Positions 1-8,796 of a DNA stretch of 64,000 bases are shown here, in pieces (positions within the stretch are counted from its first letter, which is position 1; every line of letters begins with the position of its first letter). Position numbers and translations under genes: made by a program. The notes beneath the pieces are model-generated. The model made no database searches, was not told where the DNA came from, and was given only the letters and a program-made list of their open reading frames with translations. The DNA is taken from assembly GCF_012273655.1 (NCBI RefSeq), contig NZ_JAAWWP010000011.1, positions 186,001 through 250,000 of the forward strand, given 5' to 3'. Source of the DNA: Streptomyces physcomitrii. Its GTDB lineage: Bacteria > Actinomycetota > Actinomycetes > Streptomycetales > Streptomycetaceae.

Positions 1-674
1 CTCATCCCCAGGCCCGGGATCATCCGGCGCCCGGGCGGCCCCCCGAAGCTGACCGAGCCGACGCTGTCCACCGCCACGATCCGCACCGGCCGCTCCGCCT
101 CGCGGAACCAGCGGGCGCAGCCCATCAGGGTGCCGGTGGTGCCCGCGCCGACGAAGAGCACGTCCAGGTCGGGGAACTCCTGCGCGATGGCCGGAGCCGT
201 ACGGGCGTAGTGGGCCTGCCAGTTGGCCGGGTTGGTGTACTGGCTGAGCCAGACGCAGCGCTCGTCACGGGCGCAGAGGTCGCGGATGAAGTCGAGGCGG
301 GCCCCGAGGTAGCCGCTGCCCGACTCGCCGCCGGAGACCAGGTGCACCTGGCTGCCGAGGGCCTTCATCAGCAGCCGGGTGGTCAGGTTGCAGCGGGGGT
401 CCGTCACGCACAGGAAGCGGTAGCCCTTGCTGGCGGCGATCATGCTCAGCGCGACGCCGAGGTTGCCCGAGGAGGACTCGACCAGGATCGACTCCGGTGT
501 CAGCACTCCGTCCCGTTCGGCGGCCTCCACCATCGCGTTCGCGGCCTTCAGCTTGATCGAGCCGGAGAAGTTGAAGCCCTCGCACTTGAGGAACAGCGGA
601 TGGGCGCACAGGGACCGCAGATCGACGTAGAGGTCTTCCTCGTTGAAGGCTTGGGGAGCGGAAATGACAGGCAC
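1..674 (-). CDS. sbnA: SbnA-like 2,3-diaminopropionate biosynthesis enzyme (3' end outside window)
   Basis: PLP-dependent enzyme of the cysteine synthase fold. SbnA family members condense O-phospho-L-serine with L-glutamate to N-(2-amino-2-carboxyethyl)-L-glutamate (ACEGA), the first step to L-2,3-diaminopropionate. Visible are the fold-type II lysine context FSGSIKLKAA, the substrate loop ESSSGNLGVAL and the glycine-rich VGAGTTGTLMG PLP-phosphate loop. The C-terminus lies beyond base 1. I chose GTG at 674 (MPVISAPQAF) because GGAGGAG lies six bases upstream and no ATG fits. It follows sbnB on the same strand after 163 nt, the only real gap in this operon. The sbnB partner makes plain cysteine synthase unlikely. 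Confidence 0.85.
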   Translation of the reverse strand, partial: MPVISAPQAFNEEDLYVDLRSLCAHPLFLKCEGFNFSGSIKLKAANAMVEAAERDGVLTPESILVESSSGNLGVALSMIAASKGYRFLCVTDPRCNLTTRLLMKALGSQVHLVSGGESGSGYLGARLDFIRDLCARDERCVWLSQYTNPANWQAHYARTAPAIAQEFPDLDVLFVGAGTTGTLMGCARWFREAERPVRIVAVDSVGSVSFGGPPGRRMIPGLGM

Positions 675-837
675 GATGGTCTCCTCCAGGGGCGGAGCGC
701 CCTCGGTTCGACCGTCCGGTCCCGGCGGGACGGAGGTCCGGCCGGACCCGGCGGTACGGGCGGGCTGGGCTACGGGTGGTGGTCGGGCACGGCCTGCCTC
801 CTCTCGCCTGCCGGTTTCCGGACGGTCCCCCGACTCC
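675..837 (-). other. sbnB-sbnA intergenic gap with inverted repeats
   Basis: This 163-nt stretch separates sbnB from sbnA, while every upstream junction in the operon is a 4-nt overlap. It is rich in inverted repeats, including a 14-bp palindrome (GGTCCGGCCGGACC, about 735-748) next to a further GTCC/GGAC arm. No T-run follows, so it is more likely an mRNA stabilising or attenuating hairpin than a full terminator. No gene is visible. Confidence 0.4.
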
Positions 838-1923
838 TCAGCCGTGTCTGCGCAGTTCGTGGAAGAAGCTGTCGATGACCTGGAGCTCCCCGGAGCGGGC
901 CACCTCCTCGTAGACGTACTTGCCGACCGCGAGGTCGAGCACCCCGAGCCCGAACGGCGAGAACACCGCGGGCCGGTCCGCGGGCACCCGCACCCGCCCG
1001 GCGATGACGTCGTCGAGGGTGCCGGTGAGGAAGTCCCGGTTGCCGGTGCGCTCCTCGGTCAGCTGGGTCGAGGTGGCGGCCCGCTGGCAGTGCTCGACGT
1101 CGTCGACGATGTTGGCCGAGGCGAGCAGCACCTCGGGGGCCAGATCCCGCAGCGAGACGTGCAGGACCACCGGGTGGTGCGCGAACCAGCCGGGCTCGGT
1201 GACATGCGGCTCGGCGGCGACCGTGGCGAAGACCACCAGGTCGCTGGTGCGGATCAGCTCCTCGGCGCTCTCGTGCACGGTGACCCGGCCGGCGGCACCG
1301 GACTGCTCCAGGTACGTACGGAATCCGGCGGCGCTGCCCGCGGACAGGTCGTGGACGCCGAGTTCCTCGAAGGACCAGCCGGTGCCGGCCAGGAAGGTGT
1401 GGATGTAGCGGGCGATCAGGCCCGCCCCCACGAAGCCGATCCGCACCGGCCGGGGCCGCCCGCGGCTGAGCCGGTCGGCCGCGGACGCCGCCGAGGCGGC
1501 GGTCCTGGTCGCGCTGATGATGGAGCTCTCCAGGCAGGCGAAGGGGTAGCCGGTGGCCTGGTCGTTGAGGATCAGCACGGCCGAGGCGCGCGGGATCCCG
1601 GCGCGTACGTTCCCCGGGAAGCTGGAGATCCACTTCACCCCGTCCACCTCGCCGCCGATCGAGGCGGGCAGCGCGATGATCCGCGAGGAGCGGCGGTCGG
1701 GGAACCGCAGGAAGGAGGACGGCGGGTTCACCGAGGCCCCGGCGGCGTGCAGCCGGTAGGTCTCCTCGACCACGGCCACGATCTCCGCCTCGCGGCCCCG
1801 CAGCGCCTCGTGGACCTGGGCGCCGGGGATGACGGCGAAGCTGGGGACGTCGGGCAGCTCCTCGGCCGCGGCGGGCGCGGTGACGGGGGCGGTGGTACGG
1901 GCGGCGGTGCGGGCGGTCGTCAT
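838..1923 (-). CDS. sbnB: SbnB-like ACEGA dehydrogenase (2,3-diaminopropionate biosynthesis)
   Basis: 361-aa member of the ornithine cyclodeaminase/mu-crystallin family. SbnB oxidises and hydrolyses ACEGA with NAD+ to L-2,3-diaminopropionate plus 2-oxoglutarate. Visible are the N-terminal substrate region (SSFLRFPDRRSSRIIALPA), the Rossmann loop IGFVGAGLIARYIHTF, and a C-terminal GLGVLDLAVGKYVYEE helix typical of the family. The ATG at 1923 overlaps the TGA of the upstream dioxygenase gene (ATGA), and GAGGTGAGG lies just upstream. A longer reading frame exists but would run through the preceding gene. The 2-oxoglutarate it releases is the co-substrate of the coupled oxygenase. Confidence 0.88.
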   Translation of the reverse strand: MTTARTAARTTAPVTAPAAAEELPDVPSFAVIPGAQVHEALRGREAEIVAVVEETYRLHAAGASVNPPSSFLRFPDRRSSRIIALPASIGGEVDGVKWISSFPGNVRAGIPRASAVLILNDQATGYPFACLESSIISATRTAASAASAADRLSRGRPRPVRIGFVGAGLIARYIHTFLAGTGWSFEELGVHDLSAGSAAGFRTYLEQSGAAGRVTVHESAEELIRTSDLVVFATVAAEPHVTEPGWFAHHPVVLHVSLRDLAPEVLLASANIVDDVEHCQRAATSTQLTEERTGNRDFLTGTLDDVIAGRVRVPADRPAVFSPFGLGVLDLAVGKYVYEEVARSGELQVIDSFFHELRRHG

Positions 1924-2924
1924 GGGAACCTCACCTCGGCTGTGGGCGCGCAGTCGGCCAGACGCACCGGGCCGCCCATGGCCACGACCACGTCCCGCGG
2001 TCCTTCGTAGGGCTCCCGGCTGTGCGCGGCGCGGATGTTGTCGACGAGCAGCAGGTCGCCGCGCTGCCAGGGGCGGCGCAGGGTGTGCGCGGCGTAGACC
2101 TGGTTGAGGGTGTCCACGGTGTGCTCGTCGATCGGATCGCCGTTCCCGTGGCGGGTGTTGAAGGGCAGCCCCTCGGGGCCGTACTCCTCGATCAGGTACT
2201 CGCGCACCTCGGGGGCCATCGTCCACTCGTTGAGGAAGGCGATCTGGTTGAACCAGCAGGCCCGGCCGCTGACCGGATGGCGCACGACGGCGCTGCGGTG
2301 CTGGCGGGTGCGGAGCGAACCGTCCGGCTGCCAGGCGCAGTCGACGGCCTGGGCGCGGCAGTAGCGCTCGATGGCCGCGGGGTCCTCGGTGCCGAAGGCC
2401 TCGGTCAGGGAGGCGCCGATCTCGTTGTTGTAGCTGCGGGTGAGCAGCCAGCCTTCGCGCGCGAAGCGCTCGGTCAGCGCGGCGGGCAGCGCGTCGAGCA
2501 CCGCGGCCGCGTCGGCCACCCCGGTCGCGCCGCCGCTCTCGGGGGCGCTGAGGCAGGCGAAGAGCAGCAGCCCGGGGAACTCCAGGGTGTAGCTCAGCTC
2601 GTGGTGCATGCACATCGGCTGGTTCGGCGGCCACTTCACGGAGGAGTAGACGCCCTCGCGGTACCTCTGCCGGGGGGCGAAGGCCTCCCGCTCGGCCACC
2701 GGGGCGGCGTCCAGGGCGCCGAGGACCGCGGCGGCCTCCTCGGGCCCGCCGAGGGCGAGTCCGCGCACCATGACGGCGCCGTGCGCGACGACCGCGGCCG
2801 ACAGCTCGTCCCGCTGCCCGGCCACCCAACGCGCCGCGTCCGCACCGGAGTCGGCGTACACCAGCGGTGGTTCGCCGGGGCGCTCCCGTTCGAGGAGCGC
2901 GGCGGGGAGTGAGGACGACATCAT
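1920..2924 (-). CDS. TauD/TfdA-family Fe(II)/2-oxoglutarate-dependent oxygenase
   Basis: 334-aa non-heme iron oxygenase. The iron triad is visible as His-x-Glu in MCMHHELSY (about residues 107-109) and a distal His in IRAAHSREPYEG near residue 300, followed by the region expected to hold the 2-oxoglutarate-binding Arg. The nearest functional analogues I recognise are SyrP/AsnO-like amino-acid hydroxylases acting on free or carrier-bound residues. Start ATG at 2924 overlaps the NRPS stop, and its own TGA overlaps the sbnB start. Inference: it hydroxylates Dap, or a Dap residue on one of the two carrier domains. Halogenase activity is unlikely because the Glu ligand is present rather than Ala/Gly. 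Confidence 0.8.
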   Translation of the reverse strand: MMSSSLPAALLERERPGEPPLVYADSGADAARWVAGQRDELSAAVVAHGAVMVRGLALGGPEEAAAVLGALDAAPVAEREAFAPRQRYREGVYSSVKWPPNQPMCMHHELSYTLEFPGLLLFACLSAPESGGATGVADAAAVLDALPAALTERFAREGWLLTRSYNNEIGASLTEAFGTEDPAAIERYCRAQAVDCAWQPDGSLRTRQHRSAVVRHPVSGRACWFNQIAFLNEWTMAPEVREYLIEEYGPEGLPFNTRHGNGDPIDEHTVDTLNQVYAAHTLRRPWQRGDLLLVDNIRAAHSREPYEGPRDVVVAMGGPVRLADCAPTAEVRFP

Positions 2925-5758
2925 GTGCTCCTTTCCGTCCCGGGGGTTCCGGGGGCCGGTCGCTGCGGCTGCGGCTGCTGATCCGGCTGTGGCTGTGGCT
3001 GTGACGGGGACGGCTGCGGCGCGCGCCGCCGCCCGCGTGCGTCGACGAGTGCGGCCAGGTCGGCGAGGACCGGGTACTCGGTGAGGTCCCGCAGCGAGAC
3101 CTCCCGGTCGAGGGAGATCGCCAGCCGCACGCCGGTGAGCGAGGTGCCGCCCAGCCCGAAGAAGTCGTCCCGCCGCCCGATCCGCGCCCGCGGGACGCCG
3201 AGCACCTCGGCCCAGGCGGCGGCCAGCCGCTCCTCGGTACGGGAGCCGGGGGCGACCGGGCCGGAACCCGGACCTGGACCCGTACCCGTATCCGTACCGG
3301 CTCCGGAGTCGGCCTCGGAGTCGGCCTCGGCTTCGGGTACGGGGTCGGCGTCGGGTACGGGTACGGGGCCGGATTCGGGTACGGAGTCGAGGTGCTCGGC
3401 GCGGGTCGTGAGCGCCCCCCGGTCGGTCTTGCCGTTGGCGGTCAGCGGCAGGGCGTCCAGCCAGCGGAAGGCGGCGGGCACCATATACGCGGGCAGCGTC
3501 TCGGCGAGACGGGCCCGCAGTGCCTCCGGGGCGAGCGGGTGCGGCCCGGCGCAGAAGGCGATCAGGCGCTGCCCCTGCCCGGCCGGGGGCGAGACCACCA
3601 CCGCGGTGTCCCGCACACCCGGCGTCCGCAGCAGTGCGCTCTCGATCTCGCCGATCTCGATCCGGAAGCCCCGGATCTTGACCTGGCTGTCCCGGCGGCC
3701 GAGGAACTCCAGCGTGCCGCCGGGCCGCCAGCGCCCGAAGTCACCGCCCTGGTACAGCCGTTCGCCCGCGCGGTACGGGTCGGCGGTGTACGCCGCCGCG
3801 GTGCGCTCCGGGTCGCCCACGTACCCGCGGCCCACGCAGACCCCGGAGAACACCAGGGCACCGGGGGCGCCGAGCGGCACGGGGGCCAGCCGTTCGTCGA
3901 CGACATAGACCCGGGCATTGCGCACCGGCCGCCCGATGGGCACGCGGTCGCCCTCCGGCACCCGGTCCATGATCTCGTGGTTGGTGTCGTCGGAGGTCTC
4001 GGTGAGCCCGTAGGCGTTGACCAGCCGGACCCCGGGCCGGGCGGCGAACCACCGCTCGACCAGTTCCCTGCGCAGCGCCTCGCCGGTCACCGACACACAG
4101 CGCAGATCGGGGAGCCGGCGCGGATTCCGCTCCAGGGCGGACAGCACGACCTCCAGGTAGGAGGGCACCACCTGGAGCACGTTGACCCGCCCCCGGACGA
4201 GCGTGTCGAGGAACTCCTCCACATCCAGGACCACTTGCTGCGGTACGAGCAGCGTCCGGCCGCCCGCCAGCGGCCCGGCGAGCAGCTGCCACAGCGAGAT
4301 GTCGAAGCACTGCGGCGCGGTCTGCGCGACGACATCGCCCTCGCCGATCCCCAAGTCCCCTGTCTTGGCCAGGAGATGGTTGAGCATGCCCGCGTGCTCG
4401 CACATGGCGCCCTTGGGCTCGCCGGTCGAACCGGAGGTGAAGTAGAGGTAGGCGAGATCGTCCGGGGCCACCCGGATGCCGGGGTCGCTGTCCTTGTGGC
4501 TCTCCTCGTCCGCCTCCCCGAGGGACAGCACCCGGAGCCCGGGCACCGTCTCCCGGGCGCGCGTCAGGGCGGCGGTGGCGCCGGGCGCGCTCAGCACGAG
4601 ACGGCAGGAGGCGCGGCCGAGCATGGTGGCCACCCGCTCGGCCGGGAAGTGCGGCTCGACGGGCAGATAGGCGCCACCGGCCTTGAACACCGCGAGGACC
4701 GCGGCCATCCACTCCGGTGTGCGCTCCGCGACCACCGCGACGACCTCCTGCCGCCGCAGGCCCGCGTCGAGCAGCGCGTGCGCCAGCCGGTTGGCCCGCC
4801 GGTTCAGCTCCCGGTACGTCAACTCCCGGGCGCCGCACACCGCGACGACCTCCTCCGGGCGCTCCCGTACCCGCTCCTCGAACAGCTCGTGGAACCGCTG
4901 ATCCGGCAACTCCCGCTCCGGCCCGGCGAGTCCGTAGAGCTGGAGATCCAACTCCTCGGCGGACAGCAGGCTTTGGCGCTCATGTGCCGCCTCCGGATCG
5001 CCGGTGAGGAGGGCGAGCGCGGTGCGGTGGTATCCGGCGATCCGCGCGGCGGCTTCTTCGTCCAGTACGTCGGTCCGGTAGCGCAGGCGCAAGGTCCAGG
5101 CGGGGGCGTCGAGTTGGGGCGAGTGGGGCTGGTGGGGCGGCCGGAGGAGAGTGAGGGAGAGGACGGTGGCCGGGGCGAGAGGGGGTTCTCGGTCCTCGGC
5201 CGACGGGTTGTTGCCTGCCTGGTCGCTCGCTGTCTGGTCGCTGCCTGCGGGGTTGTTGCTTGCGAGGCTGCTGTCCGCCGGGAGGGTGCCTCCCGGGGAG
5301 ATGCCCGTCGGGTCGAGGATGGTCTCCGGGGCGGGTGCCAACTGGCTGTACTCAGCCTCCTGTTGGCCGTCCTGCCGCCGGTCGTCCCGACGCCGGTGAT
5401 CCGAGGGGGCCGCGGCCCGTCCCGCTTCCGTGACCCGTGCTGCTTCCGAGACCCGTCCCGCTTCCGAGACCCGTGCCGTCTCCCGGATCAGCGACCGCCA
5501 GGAGCCGTCCGCCACGGTCAGGCGAAGGGGTACCGGCGGGCCTCCCGGGTGGTCGACGCAGCCGGTCGTCACCTCGCGTCCGCCGGTGAGTGCGGCGAGC
5601 ACCTTGGCATGGGCGGCGAGCAGCACCGCACCGGGGGCCGTCCCCTCCGACTCGGCCAACTTCCGTACGGAGGTGATGAGTTCGCCGGACAGTGGTGCGT
5701 CCAGGTGCGCGGTCCCGGGGGCGGGGGCGCGGGTCCAGCGGGGAATGGTGGCCGTCAT
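2921..5758 (-). CDS. NRPS: partial condensation domain - adenylation - peptidyl carrier
   Basis: 945-aa NRPS. Residues about 15-95 and 195-270 resemble the C-terminal half of a condensation domain (SGELITSVRKLAESEGTAPG; LLSAEELDLQL), split by a Ser/Asn-rich insert. The N-terminal half with the HHxxxDG motif is absent. The A domain spans about 288-780: YFTSGSTGEPKG, FDISLW at 485-490 (the Asp that binds an alpha-amino group is present), NAYGLTETSDD, GGDFGRW and the catalytic NGKTDR Lys777. The PCP has GGTSL (Ser873). A Pro/Gln-rich tail ends the protein. ATG at 5758 overlaps the upstream stop. Substrate is inferred as Dap from the SbnA/SbnB neighbours; I could not derive a full specificity code. 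Confidence 0.88.
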   Translation of the reverse strand: MTATIPRWTRAPAPGTAHLDAPLSGELITSVRKLAESEGTAPGAVLLAAHAKVLAALTGGREVTTGCVDHPGGPPVPLRLTVADGSWRSLIRETARVSEAGRVSEAARVTEAGRAAAPSDHRRRDDRRQDGQQEAEYSQLAPAPETILDPTGISPGGTLPADSSLASNNPAGSDQTASDQAGNNPSAEDREPPLAPATVLSLTLLRPPHQPHSPQLDAPAWTLRLRYRTDVLDEEAAARIAGYHRTALALLTGDPEAAHERQSLLSAEELDLQLYGLAGPERELPDQRFHELFEERVRERPEEVVAVCGARELTYRELNRRANRLAHALLDAGLRRQEVVAVVAERTPEWMAAVLAVFKAGGAYLPVEPHFPAERVATMLGRASCRLVLSAPGATAALTRARETVPGLRVLSLGEADEESHKDSDPGIRVAPDDLAYLYFTSGSTGEPKGAMCEHAGMLNHLLAKTGDLGIGEGDVVAQTAPQCFDISLWQLLAGPLAGGRTLLVPQQVVLDVEEFLDTLVRGRVNVLQVVPSYLEVVLSALERNPRRLPDLRCVSVTGEALRRELVERWFAARPGVRLVNAYGLTETSDDTNHEIMDRVPEGDRVPIGRPVRNARVYVVDERLAPVPLGAPGALVFSGVCVGRGYVGDPERTAAAYTADPYRAGERLYQGGDFGRWRPGGTLEFLGRRDSQVKIRGFRIEIGEIESALLRTPGVRDTAVVVSPPAGQGQRLIAFCAGPHPLAPEALRARLAETLPAYMVPAAFRWLDALPLTANGKTDRGALTTRAEHLDSVPESGPVPVPDADPVPEAEADSEADSGAGTDTGTGPGPGSGPVAPGSRTEERLAAAWAEVLGVPRARIGRRDDFFGLGGTSLTGVRLAISLDREVSLRDLTEYPVLADLAALVDARGRRRAPQPSPSQPQPQPDQQPQPQRPAPGTPGTERST

Positions 5759-8700
5759 GGCTGCTGCCTCCGCTCGCCGTCGGCGTCCCCCGGAAGGGGC
5801 TGGACCCCGTCCTGCGGGAAGGGCCGGGCCGGGTTGCCGCCCCACAGCGCGTGCCGCGGTACCGTCTCGCCCTTCATCAGGAAGGAGTCGGGGGCCAGTT
5901 CCGCGCCGTCGCCGAGCGCGATGCCGTAGTGCGCGAAGGCGCCGACCCCGAGGGTGCAGCCGGAACCGATCGCCACGCGGTCGGACTTGAAGGTGCCGTC
6001 CTCCTGCGAGTGGCACTGGACGACGCTTCCGGCGTTGAGCGTGCAGCCGTCGCCGATGCTGACCATCGTCCGCTCGGTCAGCGAGCAGCCGTCGTCGAAG
6101 ACCCGCCGCCCGATCCGGACCCCGAGCACGCGCCAGACGAGGCTCTTGTACGGGGTGCCGTTGAAGAGCCGCAGATAGGTCTCCGAGGGCACCTTCCAGT
6201 ACCGCTCGCGGCGCCAGAAGCGGATGTCGTAGATCGAGCAGAACAGCGGGCGCAGCGCGTGCCGCGCGGTCACGATCCGCTCGACGAGGACGTAGTACAC
6301 GGCGGTGAAGAGCACCACCAGGACGTTGCCGAGCGCGATCGCGAGTGCGCCGAAGGCGGTGTACAGCTCCGCGGCGCCCGAGACGAGCAGCGTGATCCCG
6401 AAGAAGTGCAGCCACCGCACCAGCAGATACAGCGCCATGGTGGCCGCGTTGTGCCGGTTCTTGGCGGGCAGCAGGCTCTCCAGCTCCTCGCCGCTCTTCA
6501 GCCGGTCGAAGCTGCTGTCCCGCTGGACGGACCGCGGTATCTCGAAGGCGGGCGAGCCGAGCAGCCCGACCCCCTCCCGTACGGGCCCGTCCACCGGGAC
6601 CATGACCTTCGTCGCCAGCAGGCAGTTCTCGCCCGTCCTGCCCCGCGTCGGGTAGGTGATCCGGTTGCCGAGGAAGTTGCGGGGCCCGATGGCCACCGGC
6701 GCCACCCGGAAGGAGCTGCTGGAGAAGTCGGCGTTGGCGATCGAGAGCCCGTCGGCCACCATCGTGCCGGTCCCCACGGTGCTCAGATACGGCGTCTCGT
6801 GGCGGACGTCGGTGCCGAAGTTGGAGCCGGTCTGCTGGACGCGGGAGAGGTCGTATCCGAGGTAGCGCAGATAGTGCACGATGCCGGAGCTGTCGCCGAA
6901 CAGCCGGGTCAGAAAGCGCCGGTTGGTGGCGAGCATGATCAGGCGGTGCGCCGCGTAGTGGTAGCCGTAGAGCGGATAGACCCGGCCGGGGCGGACGGTG
7001 CGGCCGAGCAGCCGGGGAAGCGTGGCCACCAGGAGCACGCCGAGCAGGGTGGTGCCGAAGAAGAGCAGCAGGGAGGCGGCGAGCGCCTCGCCGTAGAAGA
7101 CCCAGCCGGTGAGCGCGGTCGCCCCCGGTTCGAGGGCCGCGTTCAGCTGCGGGACCTCGGCGAGCAGGATGCCCGCGCCGCCGACCGCGAGGGGGACGTA
7201 CACCAGCAGGGCGGCGAGCAGTTGCAGCAGGCTGTGCAGCGCCCTGCGCCGGGTGCCGCACTCTGCCGGGTCCAGCGGCAGGAAGTCGGCGTCGCCGCGC
7301 TGGGCCGGGGAGCCGTGCCAGTGCTCGCCGTCGGGGACCGCCTGCCCGCGGTGCAGCGAGGAGGCGTGGCCGAGCTGGGCGCGGTCGCCCATCGTGGTCC
7401 CGATGTCGAGGACGGTGGCCTCGCTGACCACCGCGTCCCGGCCGAGGACGACGGCACCGGTCTGGATCACCCCGTCCCGGGCCCGGTAGCAGCTGAGGAA
7501 GGAGTCCTTGCGGATGACCGTGCCGGCGCCCACCGTGAGCAGGTCGGTGCAGACCGGCAGGTTGCGGGTGAAGACGCTGACGCCCTTGCCGACGCGGGCA
7601 CCGAGCGCCCGGAGGTAGAGCACGTAGAGCGGCGAACCCACGAAGAGCACCAGCGGGTTGGATCTCACCAGGGTCTTCACGGTCCAGAAGCGCACATAGT
7701 CCAGGCTCCAGACCCGGATCTCCCGCGGCTTCCACCGCCCGACCAGCAGCCACTTCAGGGCAATCGGCAGCCCGCACAGGGCGAGGAAGGCCCCGGTGCC
7801 GACGGCCACCGCCCGCAGATAGGCCTCGACGGCACCGGCACCCGCGGAGATCCACTCGTACCCCTGGACCGCCACGACCGCGACCACACAGGAGTAGCCG
7901 AGAAACGCGAGGAGTTGCAGGGCTCCGCAGAGGAGGTAGTGGGGGGTGTTGGTGCGGGGCGTGCGGGGTGGGGGGTCGGGTTTCGCCGGGGGTGCGGGGG
8001 GTGCTGAGGTGTCGTCGGGTGCTGTCGTGGCTGTGGCTGTGGCTGTGTTTGCGGCTGTGCCCGTCGCCGTCGCCGTCGCTGCTCTTGTTGGTGCTGTGGT
8101 GGGGGCGGGCGCGGGGGGCTCGGTGGTCTCGCTCGTCGCGGCGGTCCGGATGCTCGTGGCGGTCTCGGTCGGCTCGGCGATCCCACGGGCTTCCGCGACC
8201 TCGGTGGTCTCACCGCTCCCGGTGGCCTGCGGCGTGGGGGCAGGTACGGGGGTGGGTACGGGGGCGGCGAGAGCGTCCGCGAGTGCGCCGACCGTGGGGT
8301 ACTTGTAGACGTCCCGCATCGACACCTGCGGCAGGTCGCCCCGCTTCCGGACCCGTGCGCAGAAGTGCGCCATCACCAGGGAGTCCGCACCCAACTCCTC
8401 GAAGAAGTTACTGTCAGCCGCCACTTCGTCCACGTGCAGCACCTCGGCGAGCACTGCGGCGAACTCCCTCTCCGCGTTACCGAGTTGTGCGCCGTCGTCC
8501 GCCGGGGGCGGGGGGCCGTCCGTCCGTTCGTACCGGGCTTCGTCTCGTAGACCCGCGTCTACGCCTGCGGACTCGCCCTCGGCTCGTACGTCCGGGGCTT
8601 CGTCTCGTACGCCTACGGCCTCGTCCTCGGCGGGGACGTACTGACCGTCGCCCTCTGCTTGTGTCTGCTCTGTCCGATGTATCGGCTGTATCGACTGGGC

Positions 8701-8796
8701 GTCTTCGAACGATGCCTGCGAAGTGGTGGGGCCGCTGCCGGCCGAGGAGGGTTCCTCCCGGTCGGCGGGCAGCACTTCGACTGGCTTTCCCCTCAT
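5755..8796 (-). CDS. Pls/PosA-like membrane carrier protein: PCP - six TM - three LbH-like domains, no A domain
   Basis: 1013 aa. Residues 1-105 are acidic and disordered. A carrier domain follows (LGADSLVMAHFCARVRKR, phosphopantetheine Ser139), then an Ala/Pro/Thr linker to about 265. After that come three repeats of a TM pair and a left-handed beta-helix-like soluble domain (for example VSVFTRNLPVCTDLL, LDIGTTMGDRAQLGHAS, VFDDGCSLTERTMVSIG). This is the layout of the C-terminal part of Streptomyces epsilon-poly-L-lysine synthetase (Pls) and its PosA-type relatives, where the tandem soluble domains are thought to make isopeptide bonds at the membrane. The usual N-terminal A domain is missing and sits on the next gene. 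ATG at 8796 follows AGGGAG; it is the first gene of the operon. Confidence 0.87.
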   Translation of the reverse strand: MRGKPVEVLPADREEPSSAGSGPTTSQASFEDAQSIQPIHRTEQTQAEGDGQYVPAEDEAVGVRDEAPDVRAEGESAGVDAGLRDEARYERTDGPPPPADDGAQLGNAEREFAAVLAEVLHVDEVAADSNFFEELGADSLVMAHFCARVRKRGDLPQVSMRDVYKYPTVGALADALAAPVPTPVPAPTPQATGSGETTEVAEARGIAEPTETATSIRTAATSETTEPPAPAPTTAPTRAATATATGTAANTATATATTAPDDTSAPPAPPAKPDPPPRTPRTNTPHYLLCGALQLLAFLGYSCVVAVVAVQGYEWISAGAGAVEAYLRAVAVGTGAFLALCGLPIALKWLLVGRWKPREIRVWSLDYVRFWTVKTLVRSNPLVLFVGSPLYVLYLRALGARVGKGVSVFTRNLPVCTDLLTVGAGTVIRKDSFLSCYRARDGVIQTGAVVLGRDAVVSEATVLDIGTTMGDRAQLGHASSLHRGQAVPDGEHWHGSPAQRGDADFLPLDPAECGTRRRALHSLLQLLAALLVYVPLAVGGAGILLAEVPQLNAALEPGATALTGWVFYGEALAASLLLFFGTTLLGVLLVATLPRLLGRTVRPGRVYPLYGYHYAAHRLIMLATNRRFLTRLFGDSSGIVHYLRYLGYDLSRVQQTGSNFGTDVRHETPYLSTVGTGTMVADGLSIANADFSSSSFRVAPVAIGPRNFLGNRITYPTRGRTGENCLLATKVMVPVDGPVREGVGLLGSPAFEIPRSVQRDSSFDRLKSGEELESLLPAKNRHNAATMALYLLVRWLHFFGITLLVSGAAELYTAFGALAIALGNVLVVLFTAVYYVLVERIVTARHALRPLFCSIYDIRFWRRERYWKVPSETYLRLFNGTPYKSLVWRVLGVRIGRRVFDDGCSLTERTMVSIGDGCTLNAGSVVQCHSQEDGTFKSDRVAIGSGCTLGVGAFAHYGIALGDGAELAPDSFLMKGETVPRHALWGGNPARPFPQDGVQPLPGDADGERRQQP

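Follow-up and report, generated by a model that had tools for sequence, protein, structure and literature searches.

Gene content of the cassette

We examined a 64,000-nucleotide stretch of the Streptomyces physcomitrii genome (contig NZ_JAAWWP010000011.1, positions 186,001 to 250,000; G000:C3:186001-250000), hereafter the window, which begins with a cassette of five genes: a membrane protein of the Pls/PosA polymerase family without an adenylation (A) domain, a separate A protein, a TauD-family oxygenase and the SbnB and SbnA enzymes of 2,3-diaminopropionate (Dap) synthesis. All five genes lie on the minus strand and are listed in the order of transcription.

8796..5755, minus strand: A-less Pls-type membrane protein, 1013 aa (TIGR02353, PF00550, hydrophobic segments, AlphaFold, Foldseek)
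5758..2921, minus strand: half-condensation/A/carrier protein, pocket code DIWQSTADDK, without thioesterase, 945 aa (Pfam, profile position, structure)
2924..1920, minus strand: TauD-family Fe(II)/2-oxoglutarate oxygenase (PF02668, 144 bits; metal-triad motif)
1923..838, minus strand: SbnB, Dap synthesis (TIGR03944, 398.7 bits; cut-off 326.9)
674..1, continuing to -375 in the genome, minus strand: SbnA, Dap synthesis (TIGR03945, 378.9 bits; cut-off 349.95)

The original prediction, made from the letters of the window, had described a split Pls-like system with two carriers, Dap synthesis genes and an oxygenase, joined by 4-nt overlaps except at sbnA, and all of this was recovered. The overlap reads ATGA in all three cases (Pls/A, A/TauD, TauD/SbnB); SbnA begins only at 674, beyond the end of SbnB at 838, so these two do not overlap. 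SbnA is cut by the window edge and is complete in the genome (349 aa, to position -375; genome stretch L083). A GGGAG box was found 5' of the ATG of the membrane protein.

The A-less membrane protein

Over its full length, the membrane protein matched TIGR02353 ('Pls/PosA family') with 745.8 bits against a cut-off of 423.1. It comprises a disordered N-terminus, a carrier domain (PF00550, residues 112-176, active Ser139) placed directly before the transmembrane (TM) region, six predicted TM segments and three left-handed beta-helix (hexapeptide-transferase-like) domains. According to hydrophobicity and the AlphaFold model (mean pLDDT 71, pTM 0.71), the TM region forms three pairs of long helices, with the three beta-helix domains between and after them, which is the same arrangement as in the published anatomy of Pls (PMC8117764; PMC4668381). 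Foldseek matched the beta-helix domains to hexapeptide acyltransferases, and in a structural search with the whole model the result list was filled by carrier-domain matches. The Pfam search matched no AMP-binding domain in this protein; an A domain in the same chain, a trait of Pls and PosA, is thus missing. The carrier Ser was kept in all 113 sequences that reach that site, although none has an A domain in cis.

The A protein and its predicted substrate

Pfam assigned AMP-binding, AMP-binding_C and carrier domains to the A protein. Its N-terminus corresponds to the C-terminal half of a condensation domain (half-C), as originally predicted: the window copy is too divergent for Pfam, while in relatives the PF00668 match begins only at profile position 188-195 of 456, and the AlphaFold model aligned, starting at its residue 2, with residue 212 onward of SrfA-C. 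The HHxxxDG motif was absent from all 112 A proteins checked, and the full condensation domain of a canonical condensation-A-carrier module is therefore lacking. The median length before the A core is about 241 residues, and in three relatives (L131, L132, L136) it has shrunk to 108-119 residues; the half-C thus reads as a relic or scaffold rather than a catalyst, decaying in some relatives.

The pocket code of the cassette A domains was invariant, with DIWQSTADDK in 68 rows and DIWQSTTDDK in 5 rows. The window A domain has the D-x-W-x-x-x-A-D-D pocket type of nonribosomal peptide synthetase (NRPS) A domains that activate Dap or diaminobutyrate (Dab). The A protein found its best structural matches in SulM A3, crystallised once with Dap and once with a Dap-like inhibitor (Z 51.5-51.6, root-mean-square deviation 2.0, 37% identity), and D235, W239, A322, D330 and D331 are common to both A domains, as read from the alignment. 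The code of PvdL A3, which we take to be Dab-activating, differs from that of the window at 2 of 9 positions in the alignment. The two Dap codes listed in PMC12283262 are reported there to be 80% identical to Dab codes. A lysine or other homopolymer code was rejected, since DIWQSTADDK matches none: the lysine polymerases in the same genomes carry DAESIGTVVK, and homopolymer synthetases generally keep D at code position 1 and E at position 3 (PMC10522769), where the window code has W.

Two related clusters outside the cassette bear on the substrate. On a plasmid of Streptomyces NBC_01351 (L181:7474-15800), a half-C/A/carrier/thioesterase protein with the identical code DIWQSTADDK lies beside a pyridoxal phosphate (PLP) enzyme, an argininosuccinate lyase, an ATP-grasp enzyme and a kinase, with no Pls or TauD. 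On a Kitasatospora plasmid (L086:4669-21059), an A domain with the near-identical code DIWQATCDDK is accompanied by TauD, a lyase and a kinase, again without Pls, and by a PLP/ATP-grasp fusion whose PLP part best matches SbnA; stand-alone condensation domains, a carbamoyltransferase and AsnB were also found there. Judged by their enzyme sets, both are probably 2,3-diamino-acid pathways and would give independent support to the Dap assignment; the product of the L181 cluster would be a different diamino-acid compound. Family membership, pocket code and structural match together make Dap activation by the cassette A domain well supported, in line with the substrate proposed at the outset.

Dap synthesis genes and oxygenase

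Both SbnB and SbnA scored above their equivalog cut-offs (398.7 bits vs 326.9 and 378.9 vs 349.95), and on this family membership the pair would make Dap, as had been suggested. An SbnB homologue beside sbnA and an NRPS gene was reported to be more abundant in Streptomyces scabies in the presence of potato tuber (PMC11479980). The metal triad of TauD (H107-x-E109 ... H301) is intact and is kept in most relatives; because this HxE...H triad is present, TauD fits a hydroxylase and not a halogenase. Genome context suggests that it may act on a carrier-bound amino acid.

Distribution and conservation

We collected loci by a contig scan, which gave 80 loci, and from the neighbourhoods of 31 A-less Pls genes of the same genus; the prevalence figures rest on the TIGR02353 search and on these retrieved neighbourhoods. 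After removal of duplicates, 102 distinct loci had both the membrane protein and the A protein, 97 of these groupings were accompanied by TauD, and 91 loci had all five genes. The gene order was that of the window in 83 of 109 loci, a count from which duplicates had not yet been removed. Within Streptomyces, about a third of the genomes sampled (28 of 90) contained an A-less Pls, and 29 of the 31 A-less Pls genes of the genus sit in a cassette. Hosts included Streptomyces, Amycolatopsis, Kibdelosporangium, Pseudonocardia, Geodermatophilus, Rhodococcus, a Chloroflexota genome and a metagenome-assembled genome labelled Rokuibacteriota.

Conservation in 102 distinct loci excludes a chance arrangement. 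It also bears on the outcome that had been named beforehand as speaking against the original prediction, namely a single full-length Pls instead of the two proteins: this was seen in 0 of the 102 loci. A sequencing error or an assembly artefact splitting a single-chain Pls can be dismissed, given the shared layout of these loci, the position of the A domain outside the Pls A domains in the A tree, and reading frames that are intact and overlapping.

No flanking genes that could hint at the product, such as transporters or siderophore genes, were shared by most loci. A phosphopantetheinyl transferase-like gene lies near some loci.

Evolutionary origin of the two proteins

The cassette A domains formed one group (100) in the A tree; this group fell with the A domains of ordinary NRPSs, and all A domains of Pls lay elsewhere. 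In the tree of membrane domains, the A-less proteins grouped (100) with further proteins that include the single-chain L157, and the lysine type stood apart. L157 is a single-chain Pls whose code is of the DFE type (DFECLSVVTK) and whose membrane domain belongs to the window's type (54% identity). A Phe at the second code position has been reported for the poly-Dap synthetase (PMC10522769), which makes L157 plausibly a poly-Dap synthetase; its likeness to the Streptomyces albulus PD-1 enzyme is to the published description of that enzyme.

The two trees disagree with one part of the original prediction, according to which the A domain had been removed from the membrane protein to the next gene. 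With the A domain grouping with NRPS and the membrane domain with a poly-Dap-like single chain, the sequences indicate that the A domain was replaced in trans and not moved; the half-C derived from an NRPS module and the pocket DIWQSTADDK, which is not of the D-x-E type, agree with this. A Dap-type single-chain Pls may have lost its own A domain and then come to rely on an A-carrier protein derived from a conventional NRPS module; the condensation domain of that module would now persist as a decaying half.

Two Pseudonocardia plasmids carry what are likely side-branch copies. One (L150:4622-10143) encodes a degenerate A domain, three tandem carriers and a membrane domain of the window's type, followed by TauD; the other (L151:6001-10978) has a separate broken A gene beside a membrane domain of that type, also followed by TauD. 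TauD therefore follows this type of membrane domain even without the cassette A protein.

Three other arrangements of Pls-type genes were seen. A Pseudonocardia plasmid carries a Pls/PosA-type gene and then TauD (L182:2718-7981). In L155:2551-6687, the A domain of a single chain is of the lysine type (DAESIGTVVK) and its membrane domain of the type seen in the window, which may reflect a domain swap. Finally, one genome (G060) combines a single-chain Pls of the DFE type with one of the lysine type (L157 on C2 and L158 on C15), with unlinked SbnB genes, and this pair resembles a reported co-producer of polylysine and poly-Dap.

Comparison with known systems

The membrane protein shares with the synthetases of epsilon-polylysine, a food preservative, and delta-polyornithine (Pls and PosA) a carrier, a set of six TM segments and three beta-helix domains resembling acetyltransferases, and it scores well above the TIGR02353 cut-off. 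The poly-Dap synthetase, Pls and PosA are all single chains (PMC4668381; PMC8117764; PMC10522769). In Pls and PosA the A domain lies in cis and its pocket is of the D-x-E type (DAESIGTVVK in Streptomyces; DMEHNGTVSK in PosA, PMC10522769), whereas the cassette has its A domain in trans with DIWQSTADDK, a second carrier, a half-C, TauD and sometimes a thioesterase; its membrane domain is 27-30% identical to that of the lysine-type Pls. The system is thus Pls-like in its presumed working, yet two defining traits of the family, the A domain in cis and the D-x-E code, are missing.

The poly-Dap synthetase of S. albulus PD-1 shares with the cassette a proposed product made from L-Dap and SbnA/SbnB-like Dap synthesis; it differs in being a single 4,338-bp open reading frame, with the Dap genes unlinked and no TauD reported (PMC4668381). 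Module 3 of SulM, the sulfazecin NRPS (PMC11298585), is similar in its Dap-activating A domain, and its pathway likewise includes genes for Dap synthesis and a non-heme iron oxygenase (SulO), but the module belongs to a conventional NRPS with a monobactam-forming thioesterase and no membrane polymerase, and SulO acts after release. In streptothricin biosynthesis, ORF19 and ORF18 likewise combine a stand-alone A domain with a carrier on another protein to give an isopeptide (beta-lysine) oligomer; there, unlike in the cassette, no membrane beta-helix protein takes part and the A domain itself forms the bonds (PMC9606270). The original prediction knew of no described system of this layout, and we found no description of the five genes in a literature search that most subscription journals lay outside.

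Proposed mechanism and alternative explanations

We consider that the cassette is self-contained and probably makes an L-Dap oligomer or polymer by a two-protein Pls-type machine in which the A domain has been replaced in trans. SbnA and SbnB would make Dap, and the A domain of the soluble protein would adenylate it and load its own carrier. The same A domain would also load the carrier of the membrane protein in trans; we infer this step because the carrier Ser is conserved without an A domain in cis. The three beta-helix domains of the membrane protein would then form amide bonds at the membrane, by analogy and homology with Pls. TauD may oxidise Dap on a carrier or in the chain, and the thioesterase that is fused to the A protein in about half of the relatives may clear or release carrier-bound material. 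A membrane-made, possibly hydroxylated Dap oligomer or polymer, as first proposed from the sequence, is a plausible product.

A wider claim can be made only tentatively: the cassette could represent an undescribed and widespread class of polymerases made of two proteins, where a single A domain of NRPS origin feeds both carriers and the beta-helix domains at the membrane build an oxidised Dap polymer, a natural polymer class that has gone unreported.

Several points weigh against this mechanism. All members found here are known from their genes, and the AlphaFold models are of moderate confidence (mean pLDDT 71-72). Position 278 of the A domain is Q in the window vs E in SulM A3, and a modified diamino acid is therefore a possible substrate. 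Free Dap hydroxylated at C3 would be an unstable carbinolamine; for this reason TauD may equally well oxidise an acylated unit or another position, or carry out a desaturation. Some A-less Pls genes have no A gene nearby (L145, L149 and the plasmid-borne L088), two of which, L145 and L149, lie in genomes with a cassette elsewhere. Finally, a thioesterase is not usual in a Pls-type polymerase, and its presence in about half of the relatives may point to a short, defined product.

This last point leads to the strongest alternative, in which the A protein is the main scaffold for a short defined Dap product (a dipeptide, or a cyclised or oxidised Dap), TauD acts on its carrier, and the membrane protein serves only for transfer or export. 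A tail of thioesterase length after the carrier was found in 57 of 105 distinct A proteins, and it was identified as a thioesterase by PF00975 in L004, L040 and L017 and by a GHSxG motif. The half-C/A/carrier/thioesterase protein of L181 occurs without any Pls, and in Streptomyces jeddahensis one cassette lacks the membrane protein (L021:8538-14742); there a phosphopantetheinyl transferase-like gene adjoins, and the strain also has a complete cassette (L008). Against a short product, 102 of 105 A proteins have the membrane protein as a neighbour (of the remaining three, one is a 3-kb contig, L063), and the membrane protein is kept at full length, its carrier Ser invariant and its three beta-helix domains all present. 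About half of the relatives, and likewise the A protein of the window, lack the thioesterase, and the tree needs about 12 changes to account for it, which means that it comes and goes. On balance, we regard a short product as rather unlikely.

Two carriers fed by one A domain would also allow for two linkages, where the soluble carrier adds a second Dap to the alpha-amine of a beta-linked chain to give a comb-like poly[beta-(Dap-Dap)], with TauD tailoring. A comb-like Dap polymer from a polylysine-producing Streptomyces is cited in PMC10522769 and PMC9606270, but the literature within reach ties no gene to it and we saw no sequence sign of two linkage types, so this version appears improbable.

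Pls-type polymerases resist dissection, since one membrane chain holds activation, carrier and polymerisation together; in the cassette these are naturally separated. Loading, joining, oxidation and release could be reconstituted stepwise, and the role of the beta-helix domains alone could be tested. The compact cassette points to an unreported Dap-based metabolite, and the natural exchange of an A domain in trans may be useful for polyamino acid engineering.

Neighbouring gene

A glutathione peroxidase gene, probably unrelated, lies 10 bp beyond SbnA on the same strand (L083:17057-17614), and we therefore place the end of the cassette after SbnA.

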